DNA of 64,000 nucleotides from Thiocystis minor (GTDB taxonomy: Bacteria > Pseudomonadota > Gammaproteobacteria > Chromatiales > Chromatiaceae): NCBI RefSeq assembly GCF_016653465.1, contig NZ_NHSQ01000159.1, forward strand, positions 1 through 64,000, written 5' to 3'. Positions 18,266 through 22,443 of this stretch are shown one piece after another. Made by a program: the position numbers and the translations under genes. The notes under the pieces were generated by a model that was not told the DNA's origin, did no database searches, and was given only the letters and a program-made list of their open reading frames with translations. Numbering within the stretch: position 1 is the first letter of the stretch; every line of letters starts with the position of its first letter.

Positions 18266-19330
18266 TCAGGCGTGATACGCAAGGCTCAATTCATGCACCG
18301 CGGCAACCATGGCGCCGGCGTGTTCCGGATTGACGTCCGGCGTAATTCCGTGGCCAAGGTTGAAGACATGCCCTGGACCCTGGCCATAGCTGGCCAGCAC
18401 CCGCGCGACTTCCTCGCGAATCCGCTCCGGGGAAGCGTAGAGGGCGCAGGGATCGAGATTGCCCTGGAGCGCGACCCGATCCCCGACCAGACGACGGGCA
18501 TCCGCCAGATCCGTGGTCCAATCCACCCCGAGCGCGTCGCAGCCGGTGTTGGCCATCTCGCCCAGCCACTGTCCGCCATTCTTGGTAAAGAGGATGACGG
18601 GAACCCTCCGACCCTCGGCCTCGCGGGTCAGACCTGCAATCACTCGCTGCATATAGGCGAGCGAAAAGTCACGATAATTCGCCGGTGCCAACGCGCCGCC
18701 CCAGGTATCGAAGATCATTGTCGCCTGCGCCCCGCGGGCAATCTGCGCATTCAGATAGACCGTCACCGCATCCGCGGTCTTGGCCAGCAAACGATGCAGC
18801 AGATCCGGGCGATCAAACATCATCCCCTTGATCTGCGAAAAAGTCTTCGCGCCACCGCCTTCGACCATATAGGTGGCCAAAGTCCAGGGACTGCCCGAAA
18901 AACCGATCAGCGGCACGCGCCCCTGAAGTTCGCGCCGGATCGTGGAGACCGCATCCATGACGTATTTCAGCTCGTCTTCCGGATCCGGTATCCCGATCCG
19001 ATCGACATCGGCCTCGGATCGGACCGGACGCTCGAAATGCGGTCCCTCGCCCTCCGAGAAATAGAGTCCCAGACCCATGGCGTCGGGCACCGTGAGAATG
19101 TCCGAGAACAGGATGGCAGCATCCAACGGAAAGCGTTCCAGCGGTTGCAGAGTCACCTCACAGGCCAGTTCCGGATTCTTGCAAAGATCCATGAAGCTGC
19201 CGGCCTTCGCGCGGGTCGCACGGTACTCGGGCAGGTAGCGGCCTGCCTGGCGCATCATCCACACCGGAGTGTAATCAACAGGTTCGCGCAGCAGTGCGCG
19301 CAGGAAGGTGTCATTGGTCAGTGATGTCAT
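18266..19330 (-). CDS. hemE: uroporphyrinogen decarboxylase
   Basis: 354 aa; it decarboxylates uroporphyrinogen III to coproporphyrinogen III in tetrapyrrole synthesis. Motifs: [17 protein letters not shown] near residue 25 (substrate arginines), [16 protein letters not shown] with the catalytic aspartate, [18 protein letters not shown], and [20 protein letters not shown] at the end. Its 5' end faces the AT-rich candidate origin region, as in Caulobacter where hemE borders the origin. Confidence 0.97.
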
Positions 19331-19490: not shown

Positions 19491-19706
19491 ATAAGTTATT
19501 GATAAATAAAATTAAAATAGAAGCTGTTGAAATCTAACAGAGGAACTTGTGGATAATCCGCGAAAAAATCTCCAGGTCAATATTAGACACCTGTTATCCA
19601 CAGCTTCAATAGTCACCGGCGCACCCTTTTTATTTTATACAAGAATTTGATTTTTATTAAATTTTATCCGTTAAAAAGGTTATGCACAGAGCTTATTACT
19701 ACAGTT
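19491..19706 (+). repeat. DnaA-box module, copy A
   Basis: Order of landmarks: ATAAGTTATTGAT (19491-19503), AACTTGTGGATAATC (19544-19558), TTATCCACA (19594-19602), a C-rich to T-rich transition, TTATGCACA (19680-19688) and CTTATTACTACAGTT (19692-19706). Every landmark reappears in copy B, at an offset of 454 bases for the first and 455 for the rest. The third box of this copy has a G in place of C at position 5. Confidence 0.8.
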
Positions 19707-19836
19707 TTATATAAATAAATATTTGATGTTGTATATTTTCGCGCGAACACCCCCCGCACCGCTGTTTGAGCAAGCAGCAGTCCGTACCACTTAACGTGTC
19801 TGCCTCTCGCCATCTCGATGCTGGACTTGATTATCT

Positions 19837-19959
19837 TTAACCGGCGAGGGCATCGCAGACGAACAATTCCTCGCAGGTGTCTTCGCGGAAGGCTACGACT
19901 TGATGATCGTAGATGCCTCTATCTTCCAGTGCACGGATATAAACATAAGTTATTGATTG
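19837..19959 (-). pseudogene. possible remnant of a protein gene between the two modules
   Basis: The 200 bp between the copies are GC-richer. On the minus strand one frame is open from 19959 to a TAA at 19837-19839, about 40 codons, and reads like protein near its end (ALEDRGIYDHQVVAF, then REDTCEELFVCDALAG). It has no start codon and upstream in-frame stop lies inside the AT-rich module. I do not recognise the family. It may be the tail of a decayed gene or chance. Confidence 0.3.
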
Positions 19960-20161
19960 TTAATTGATAAATAATAACCTGACAAAAACCGCTGGAGCAA
20001 CTTGTGGATAATCTGTGCGAAAAAATATCAAGCATTGTTGCGCACTGCTTATCCACCGTTTCAAAAGGTCTCCACGCACCCCTTTTGTTTAATCTAAGCT
20101 TATGTTTTTAAAATAATTTAGATGATAAAAAAGTTTATCCACAACACTTATTACTACAGTT
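19945..20161 (+). repeat. DnaA-box module, copy B
   Basis: Second copy: ATAAGTTATTGAT (19945-19957), AACTTGTGGATAATC (19999-20013), TTATCCACC (20049-20057), TTATCCACA (20135-20143), CTTATTACTACAGTT (20147-20161). Sequence between the landmarks has diverged from copy A while spacing is kept, which suggests selection on box spacing. It lies nearest to uvrD. Confidence 0.8.
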
Positions 20162-20271
20162 ATTTTTACTTAATCTTTTTTTATTAAAGAAAGCAGGCCA
20201 GAACCATCGAATCCCAGATCCAGCGGGATTTTTATCCCGCGATCCACGAATGACGGGTATAAAATGCCTTG

Positions 20272-22443
20272 ATGGACGTTTCCCTTCTGCTCGACTCACT
20301 CAATGCGGCCCAGCGCGAGGCGGTTTCCGCCGAAGCCGGCAATCTGCTCATCCTAGCTGGCGCGGGTTCCGGCAAAACCCGCGTACTGGTGCATCGTATC
20401 GCTTGGTTGATTCAGGTCGAGCAGGTACCGCCCTGGGCGGTACTGGCGGTGACCTTCACCAACAAGGCGGCACGGGAAATGCGCGGGCGCATCGAGGAAA
20501 TGCTCGGAGAACCGGTCGGCGGCATGTGGGTCGGAACCTTTCATGGTCTTGCCCATCGCTTTCTACGCGCGCACTGGCAGGATGCCAAACTGCCCCAGCA
20601 CTTCCAGATTCTGGACGCGGACGATCAGTTCAGGTTGGTCAAACGTATTCTGAAGGCAATGCAACTCGACGAAGCGCGCTGGCCGCCGCGTCAGGTACAG
20701 GGCTTCATCAACAAACAGAAGGACGAAGGTCTGCGGCCCCAGCATCTGGATGCTGGCGGCGATTTTTTCCTGGACAAAATGATCGGCGTCTATCGTGAGT
20801 ACGAGTCGTTGCGTACCCGCGGCGGCCTACTGGATTTCGCGGATCTGCTGCTCTCGGCGCTCGAACTGCTGCGCGAACGACCGGACATTCTGCACCACTA
20901 TCAGGAGCGTTTCCGTCATATCCTGGTCGACGAGTTTCAGGATACCAACGCCATTCAATATGCCTGGCTGCGACTACTCGCGGGGCGCAACGACAACCTT
21001 TTCGCGGTCGGCGACGACGATCAATCCATCTATGGCTGGCGTGGCGCGAAGGTCGAAAATATCCAGTCGTTTCAGCGTGACTATCCCAATACCCGCACGG
21101 TTCGGTTGGAGCAGAATTATCGTTCGACCGGCAACATTCTCGCCGCGGCCAACGCCCTGATCGATCACAATCCGACCCGTCTGGGGAAAAATCTCTGGAC
21201 CGAAGACGGCGCGGGCGAGCCCATCCGCCGCTATACCGCCTTCAACGAGGTGGACGAGGCGCGCTTCGTCATCGAGCGCATCCGCCGTTTCGTCGAGACC
21301 GATGGCTATCGGCGCGACGAGTGCGCGATCCTCTACCGCACCACGGCACAATCGCGGCTGTTCGAGGAATCGCTGATCCAGGCCGGAATCCCCTATCGAG
21401 TCTATGGCGGACTGCGCTTTTTCGAGCGGGCAGAAATCCGTGACGCGCTCGCCTATCTGCGTCTCGTGGCCAACCCGGACGATGACGCCGCCTTCGAGCG
21501 CGTCATCAATACGCCGACCCGCGGCATCGGCGAGCGCACGCTCGATCTGTTGCGTCAGCAGGCACGAGAATCCCGCGTCTCGCTCTGGCGGGCCGCGCTG
21601 GATCTGACCGCCACCGACGCGCTGGGACCGCGGGCGAGCGGTGCGTTGCGTAAATTTATCGCACTGATCCAGGCGCAGACCGCAGACAACGACGGCCGGA
21701 CGCTGGCCGGACTCGCCAGACATCTGATCGATGTCACCGAACTCCCCGCTTTCTATCAAAAAAACAAAGACGGCAAGGGTCAGGATCGGATCGAAAATTT
21801 GGAACAGTTGGTGGAAACGGTCACGCGATTCGAGCGTGAACTGGACGATGAGTCGGGCGATGCGCTCGGCGCCTTCCTCGCCCATGCCGCGCTGGAGGCC
21901 GGCGAGACCCAGGCCGACCGCTCGGAGGACGGCGTTCAACTCATGACCCTGCACAGCGCCAAGGGTCTGGAATTCCCGATCGTCTTTCTGGTGGGCGTCG
22001 AGGAAGGTCTTTTCCCGCACAGTCTTTCGGCCGAGGATCCGGCCCGGCTCGAAGAAGAACGGCGCCTATGCTACGTCGGCATGACCCGCGCCATGAAGCA
22101 GTTATTCGTCACCCATGCCGAGAGCCGCCGTCTCTACGGACGCGAGGACTATCCCGCGCCGTCGCGTTTTCTGCGCGAGATTCCGCCAGAACTGGTGGAA
22201 GAGGTGCGCGGCGGCGGTGTCGCCCGTCGCCCGGCTGCGGTAATCCCGATACGGGGCCAGGCCGGGACGCCGGTCGCCGGCGGCTTTCAACTCGGTCAGC
22301 GCGTTCGGCATCCCAAGTTCGGCGACGGGGTGGTCCTGCAACAGGAGGGTAGCGGTACCAATGCCCGTATCCAGGTTAAATTCCAGGACGTCGGCGCAAA
22401 ATGGCTGGTGCTGGCCTATGCACGCTTGGAGCCTGCGGGATAG
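20272..22443 (+). CDS. uvrD: DNA helicase II (UvrD)
   Basis: 723 aa superfamily 1A 3'-5' helicase for mismatch and nucleotide excision repair. All motifs are visible: AGAGSGKT (Walker A), TFTNKAAREM (Ia), LVDEFQDTN (II), GDDDQSIYGWRGA (III), LEQNYRST (IV), LMTLHSAKGLEFPIVFLVG (V) and CYVGMTRA (VI). The C-terminal HPKFGDGVVLQQEG tudor-like segment marks UvrD rather than Rep. ATG 20272 is preferred over a TTG one codon before. It reads away from the candidate origin. Confidence 0.96.
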   Translation: MDVSLLLDSLNAAQREAVSAEAGNLLILAGAGSGKTRVLVHRIAWLIQVEQVPPWAVLAVTFTNKAAREMRGRIEEMLGEPVGGMWVGTFHGLAHRFLRAHWQDAKLPQHFQILDADDQFRLVKRILKAMQLDEARWPPRQVQGFINKQKDEGLRPQHLDAGGDFFLDKMIGVYREYESLRTRGGLLDFADLLLSALELLRERPDILHHYQERFRHILVDEFQDTNAIQYAWLRLLAGRNDNLFAVGDDDQSIYGWRGAKVENIQSFQRDYPNTRTVRLEQNYRSTGNILAAANALIDHNPTRLGKNLWTEDGAGEPIRRYTAFNEVDEARFVIERIRRFVETDGYRRDECAILYRTTAQSRLFEESLIQAGIPYRVYGGLRFFERAEIRDALAYLRLVANPDDDAAFERVINTPTRGIGERTLDLLRQQARESRVSLWRAALDLTATDALGPRASGALRKFIALIQAQTADNDGRTLAGLARHLIDVTELPAFYQKNKDGKGQDRIENLEQLVETVTRFERELDDESGDALGAFLAHAALEAGETQADRSEDGVQLMTLHSAKGLEFPIVFLVGVEEGLFPHSLSAEDPARLEEERRLCYVGMTRAMKQLFVTHAESRRLYGREDYPAPSRFLREIPPELVEEVRGGGVARRPAAVIPIRGQAGTPVAGGFQLGQRVRHPKFGDGVVLQQEGSGTNARIQVKFQDVGAKWLVLAYARLEPAG

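Follow-up and report, generated by a model that had tools for sequence, protein, structure and literature searches.

The locus described here is best compared with the oriC that occupies the dnaA–dnaN gap and carries a basal unwinding system, as presented in PMC8287927. In that account, which covers Bacillus subtilis and other species, a DnaA filament extends from a DnaA box onto adjoining DnaA-trios and thereby opens the DNA; the rule given for recognizing a trio element asks for at least three trinucleotides with a central A, 0–16 bp from a box with at most two mismatches.

Some described chromosomes have origins that are double in one sense or another. The bipartite origins of B. subtilis and Helicobacter pylori, in the description of PMC4285127, comprise two neighboring DnaA-box clusters of which a single one holds the unwinding region, separated by a spacer gene that in most cases is dnaA. 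For Ralstonia pickettii and Ochrobactrum anthropi, an origin at dnaA and a second one at hemE have been predicted, at distances of 291 and 882 kb in the two species (Gao 2015, PMC4403523). Pseudomonas aeruginosa has two autonomously replicating elements, one perhaps dispensable, which are not described as a tandem pair where PMC4403523 presents them. Finally, Mycobacterium bovis BCG Pasteur has acquired two oriC copies by large tandem duplication; by the accounts in PMC2448323 and PMC4403523 the duplicated stretches are 29.7 and 36.2 kb long, and the copies of the dnaA region are identical.

The window, i.e., the whole 64,000-nucleotide stretch of DNA from the purple sulfur bacterium Thiocystis minor analyzed here, holds a locus whose anatomy resembles that of a DnaA-dependent oriC. 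It shares the box, the short gap, the trios and the AT-rich tract with the dnaA–dnaN origin, but its core is found between hemE and uvrD, is absent between dnaA and dnaN, and is a tandem double. Two neighboring box clusters also recall the bipartite origins; here, however, both clusters have a putative unwinding part and the spacer of about 0.2 kb contains no recognized gene, so the label "bipartite oriC", one of the options in the first-pass annotation, is the wrong one. In contrast to the dnaA/hemE double origins, there is no copy on the dnaA side and there are two on the hemE side, 455 bp apart. Compared with BCG Pasteur, the unit is only 455 bp long and its filler is strongly diverged. The smaller of the BCG Pasteur duplications is the one that we take to contain oriC. 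In the open-access literature we found no account of a hemE–uvrD origin in purple sulfur bacteria, nor of a tandem-doubled short origin core.

Architecture of the Locus

The left neighbor of the locus is hemE (uroporphyrinogen decarboxylase; 18266–19330, minus strand; NCBIfam TIGR01464, E = 2.6e-133) and the right neighbor is uvrD (DNA helicase II; 20272–22443, plus strand; NCBIfam NF008743, 1140.8 bits, above the cut-off). The gap between them contains two modules with the same direction, A on the hemE side and B on the uvrD side. The dnaA gene of this genome (G000) is located on another contig (G000:C85, locus L001), near the contig end, and has what by eye is a transposase-like fragment upstream.

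Each module holds three DnaA boxes in the order reverse–forward–forward, with spacings of 46 and 86 bp. Boxes A1 (19548–19556, minus strand) and A2 (19594–19602, plus strand), 46 bp apart, are both exact copies of TTATCCACA, and A3 (19680–19688, plus strand; TTATGCACA, one mismatch) follows 86 bp from A2 and adjoins a trio run. In module B, B1 (20003–20011, minus strand) is again exact, B2 (20049–20057, plus strand) reads TTATCCACC with one mismatch, and B3 (20135–20143, plus strand) is exact and adjoins the second trio run. Four of the six boxes are thus exact, with a single mismatch in the other two. All three box pairs are offset by 455 bp, just as the first-pass annotation had described them, and its coordinates hold throughout.

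The identical flanking word of 15 bases that it had pointed out is present at 19692–19706 and 20147–20161, and the contrast that it had drawn between conserved boxes and diverged filler is equally clear. At the offset of 455, identity amounts to 25/27 in the boxes and 15/15 in the 15-mer, versus 72/127 in the rest of 19538–19706. The difference is significant for the boxes alone (Fisher p = 1.9e-4); including the 15-mer, which was chosen for being identical, gives p = 6.7e-7.

Six boxes with at most one mismatch within 820 bp compare with a mean of 0.25 and a maximum of 4 in 500 dinucleotide shuffles. When the pattern TGTGGATAA-N37-TTATCCACA was sought with up to three mismatches in the 5,297,929-base assembly, it was found at two places, which are A and B, while the reversed control pattern had no match in this assembly. 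At the thresholds used, A and B are therefore the sole such sites in the 5.3 Mb genome. Weaker half-boxes, about 11 bp inside the facing boxes (19548–19602 and 20003–20057), can be seen in many relatives; together with the facing boxes they make up a near-palindrome, and the module model matches its minus strand too.

DnaA-trios, AT-rich tracts and IHF-consensus sites can be added to the first-pass description. The trio-like runs, on the plus strand and 4 bp after the third box, are located at 19693–19704 in module A (TTA TTA CTA (CAG)) and at 20148–20159 in module B; on the complementary strand, read 3' to 5', both give AAT-AAT-GAT. With the central A on that strand, A3 and B3 and their runs conform to the box–trio rule as stated in PMC8287927. 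The shared 15-mer, which holds the trio run, is likely to be the unwinding element. It is followed by AT-rich tracts at 19706–19740 (89% A+T) and 20161–20195 (86% A+T), putative unwinding regions called from base composition alone. Taking WATCAANNNNTTR as the IHF consensus, we located minus-strand sites with no mismatch at 19492–19504 (56 bp left of A1) and 19640–19652 (between A2 and A3) in module A, and at 19946–19958 (57 bp left of B1) in module B. With its trio run, AT-rich tract and IHF-consensus site, either module has the look of a complete origin core.

The GC-richer spacer between the modules (19741–19945) showed no significant match elsewhere in the genome or in the relative loci compared, and any ORF in it is shorter than 60 aa; two frames were without a Pfam match. 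A mobile gene fragment was considered for the spacer and rejected, given the lack of matches in these searches. Some short open frames within it have a coding-like look, and match nothing.

Distribution of the Module

Scanning 1.41 Mb of DNA for a reverse box, a forward box 46 bp away, and another forward box after a further 70–89 bp, followed by a trio, yielded 93 matches with 40 distinct sequences; the DNA scanned was partly overlapping, and much of it had been chosen for holding such sites. The same DNA, reversed, yielded none. The 40 distinct modules have the geometry R-46-F-(72–88)-F-3nt-CTTATTA, in which 46 as the first spacing was a requirement of the scanner and was then learnt by the models; it recurs also in a free listing of boxes, where some relatives differ. 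The second spacing is 84–86 bp in 29 modules, 72–73 bp in 8, and other in 3. The two main classes are about one helical turn apart. An IHF-consensus site with at most one mismatch is present between boxes 2 and 3 in 16 of the 40 modules, versus 3.4 expected from base shuffles.

A sequence-only model built from the modules of the family, A and B included (R1), matched 73 of 210 family genomes at E ≤ 1e-8. One module was found in 41 of these, and two or more non-overlapping ones in 32 (7 of 117 rows had been dropped before counting, for overlapping another match). At the level of the class, R1 matched 43 of 185 genomes at E ≤ 1e-6, the Thiocystis genome included; the 42 outside the family did so at one place each, after merging of overlaps. 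Outside the family, true copy numbers may be higher than counted, because R1 is family-built and few candidates were scored per genome (13 in the family search, 15 in the class search, 46 in another), so that second modules may be missed. Among nine loci from other families, seven had C-terminal motifs of dnaA, N-terminal motifs of dnaN or both next to the module, oriented as expected; of the remaining two, one was ambiguous and one was without such motifs.

A module was found upstream of hemE in 20 of 80 named loci (the best 80 of 520, from Thiocapsa, Thiocystis, Thiorhodococcus, Allochromatium, Marichromatium and others; 4 of the 80 had less than 300 bp upstream), and it was single in 19 of them and double in one, L040. 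In other relatives the module fills the dnaA–dnaN gap, and in two it is also located 3' of an mnmE-like gene (named by eye). Judged by sequence, the putative origin core occupies the dnaA–dnaN gap in other families of the class and, in Chromatiaceae, is usually found once upstream of hemE.

Diverged pairs with the same direction occur in four other genomes of the family (G164, G008, G021 and G108). The pair in G164, identical to L040, is at hemE–uvrD with an offset of 380 bp, and both members are full-length; it falls within a Thiocapsa clade (UFBoot 99) and hence looks independent of the pair in the window. In G008 and G021 both members are in the dnaA–dnaN gap, scoring 43.0 and 32.5 bits in the former and 41.6 and 26.8 bits in the latter. 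In G108 the 3' end of dnaA and the dnaA–dnaN gap are doubled at an offset of 285 (204/285 identical), with weak model scores. We rejected a helical-phase link between copies, since 455 and 380 bp correspond to 43.3 and 36.2 turns, which are not both whole. In G095 (L338, G095:C223, 2360–3688), two modules separated by 1.15 kb form an inverted (divergent) pair; in G027, of the same genus, two contigs each have a single module close to their start, which may represent the same locus.

Probable Position of the Origin

The dnaA–dnaN gap of the Thiocystis genome (L001, G000:C85, 1682–1797, about 0.12 kb) contains no box of at most one mismatch. This genome is one of eight examined with their sole full-length module beside uvrD (G000, G005, G024, G028, G054, G060, G099 and G101), and in all eight the dnaA–dnaN gap is short, about 85–222 bp, and free of such boxes. 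The uvrD-side module is between hemE and uvrD in seven of the eight, the two genes being apart in G005. These box-free gaps are the best evidence that a hemE–uvrD module can serve as an origin, and the missing core at the dnaA–dnaN gap of this genome implies that the pair A + B is probably the chromosomal oriC. That the locus is the chromosomal oriC of this Chromatiaceae bacterium, and consists of two complete origin cores in tandem with the same direction, is the reading we favor, if by a narrow preference.

Modules at both dnaA–dnaN and hemE–uvrD were found in six genomes (G029, KS1, G058, G076, G096 and G113). In the genus that holds Thiocapsa sp. KS1 (g24), seven genomes have two modules 63–67 kb apart on one contig, which in G029 and KS1 were checked to be the hemE–uvrD and dnaA–dnaN ones; the arrangement is similar to that of R. 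pickettii and O. anthropi, with an origin-like region beside hemE in addition to the one at dnaA. In the module tree, the hemE–uvrD modules (Marichromatium-type excepted) separate weakly from the dnaA–dnaN modules (UFBoot 55). As for the direction of the move, we infer that the core was probably ancestral in the dnaA–dnaN gap and that a hemE–uvrD copy took over in this clade. The dnaA–dnaN gap of several genera, this one included, would then have lost its core, and the hemE–uvrD core would have doubled later.

Proposed Mechanism and Alternatives

We propose that DnaA would bind the facing boxes, 46 bp apart, in each core. DNA bending at the IHF-type sites may assist, and the third box may be drawn into the complex, by analogy with Escherichia coli as described in PMC5742627. 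From the third box, DnaA would pass as a filament onto the DnaA-trio strand, and the filament on the trios would open the adjoining AT-rich tract for helicase loading; these unwinding steps are patterned on the known DnaA-box/DnaA-trio system, as laid out in PMC8287927. Two cores in a row could let initiation start from either one or from the two together. Both copies would have remained functional, and most likely they are initiation sites that are redundant with each other or cooperate.

A bolder version, which we put forward tentatively, is that of a double-barreled origin, in which two complete, separately evolving box/trio cores in one gap would both be opened in vivo. Such doublings would have been repeated in the family (at hemE–uvrD in two genomes of different clades, at dnaA–dnaN in three), on top of the move from dnaA–dnaN to hemE–uvrD. 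An old pair of complete cores would make it possible to test directly why one unwinding site normally suffices, and likewise whether a single locus can accommodate two active DnaA filaments and by what steps an origin is relocated from dnaA to some other gene. A comparison series in purple sulfur bacteria is at hand, since single-copy relatives exist alongside others whose two copies are dispersed or in tandem.

The modules of the two closest relatives compared, G004 and G005, help to weigh these readings. They form one clade with A and B (UFBoot 99), within which B groups with the two relatives (UFBoot 100) and A falls outside. On this best tree, the doubling would be older than the split from G004 and G005, which would keep the uvrD-side copy only. 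A recent tandem duplication giving A and B may also be entertained, as the AU test does not reject the two as sisters (p = 0.23–0.38). Both relatives retain the module on the uvrD side only, hemE and uvrD being 56 kb apart in G005 and on different contigs in G004. Transposase-like sequence was noticed by eye near some of these breaks.

That G004 and G005 live with the uvrD-side module alone, and that B is about 73% identical to their modules versus 59–62% for A, would fit a situation in which just one module, probably B, is active and the other binds DnaA mainly for titration or loading help, as a regulatory partner. P. aeruginosa, where just one of the two replicating elements is essential in typical laboratory growth according to PMC4403523, may be a precedent. 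We consider this division of labor unlikely, if deserving of attention, because A retains a trio run and an AT-rich tract, which are needless for titration. Furthermore, A outscores B in R2, a model from which every sequence of this genus was held out, used here because R1 contains A and B; the scores are 72.1 bits for A, 66.3 for B, 68.8 for the G004 module and 63.0 for the G005 module. The fit of both copies to R2, and the geometry that relatives share with different filler, support the earlier suggestion of selection on the spacing of the duplicated core.

A could alternatively be a disappearing remnant of an origin that underwent duplication or rearrangement; the first-pass annotation had listed a duplicated-origin relic among its options. 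It has the longest terminal branch of the four modules of the genus (0.313), and rearrangements did separate hemE from uvrD in both relatives. On such a branch, however, neutral decay would be expected to leave 8.5 mismatches at the 34 key positions of A, against one observed (p = 7e-4, weakening to p = 0.04 if the true branch is half as long). The spacing in A is unchanged, and its top score in R2 means that A is not visibly decayed, all of which makes a relic improbable.

The modules are not singled out as the origin by GC skew, which is uninformative, or slightly against them. The raw cumulative minimum of the 81.5 kb module contig is at 32.9 kb, on a plateau of 20–40 kb, and after correction for orientation the third-position skew favors a step close to 63 kb (LLR 8.6), a step at the modules reaching 2.7. 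In local stretches of G029, KS1, G166 and G005, neither hemE–uvrD nor dnaA–dnaN is the best skew step, and in G166 the fitted step is negative at both candidate sites, opposite to the expectation for an origin. The first-pass annotation would have given up an origin here if the skew minimum were elsewhere, for example at dnaA–dnaN, and the modules were lacking in relatives; the relatives do have the module and the dnaA–dnaN gap of this genome is box-free, whereas the skew lends no specific support. In G029:C1 and the KS1 chromosome, with about 67 kb between the modules, the cumulative skew is W-shaped and dnaA is near a local maximum.

The skew result would be compatible with A and B being DnaA-control sites of the DARS/datA kind, which promote release of ADP from DnaA or hydrolysis of ATP by it, with the origin elsewhere. 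As described in PMC5742627, DARS cores likewise have three boxes, with the first inverted relative to the rest, and IHF is employed by datA and DARS2. The box order is thus shared, but the compactness is not, the three boxes spanning 141 bp here versus 101 bp for the whole of DARS1 in the same source. Moreover, the modules contain a DnaA-trio and an AT-rich tract, the same module fills dnaA–dnaN gaps, and no further module was found in the Thiocystis genome. We therefore regard control sites as a little less probable even than a relic. Lastly, a draft in 198 contigs, with a contamination estimate of 1.86% and a spacer without known relative in the genome and relative loci compared, might conceivably have joined the origin regions of two strains, but such an artefact is very improbable, given that hemE and uvrD were each found once at the thresholds used, that the copies are too different for a repeat-collapse error, and that diverged pairs occur in four other genomes.

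Two genomes show further arrangements of the module. In G126, four origin-like modules are seen on three contigs (C10, C44 and C74; L343–L346), one at dnaA–dnaN (by eye) and the others beside unrelated genes. In G058 (contig C10; L193, 11064–12383), an ORF that by eye is integrase-like is present between an mnmE-like gene and a third origin module.
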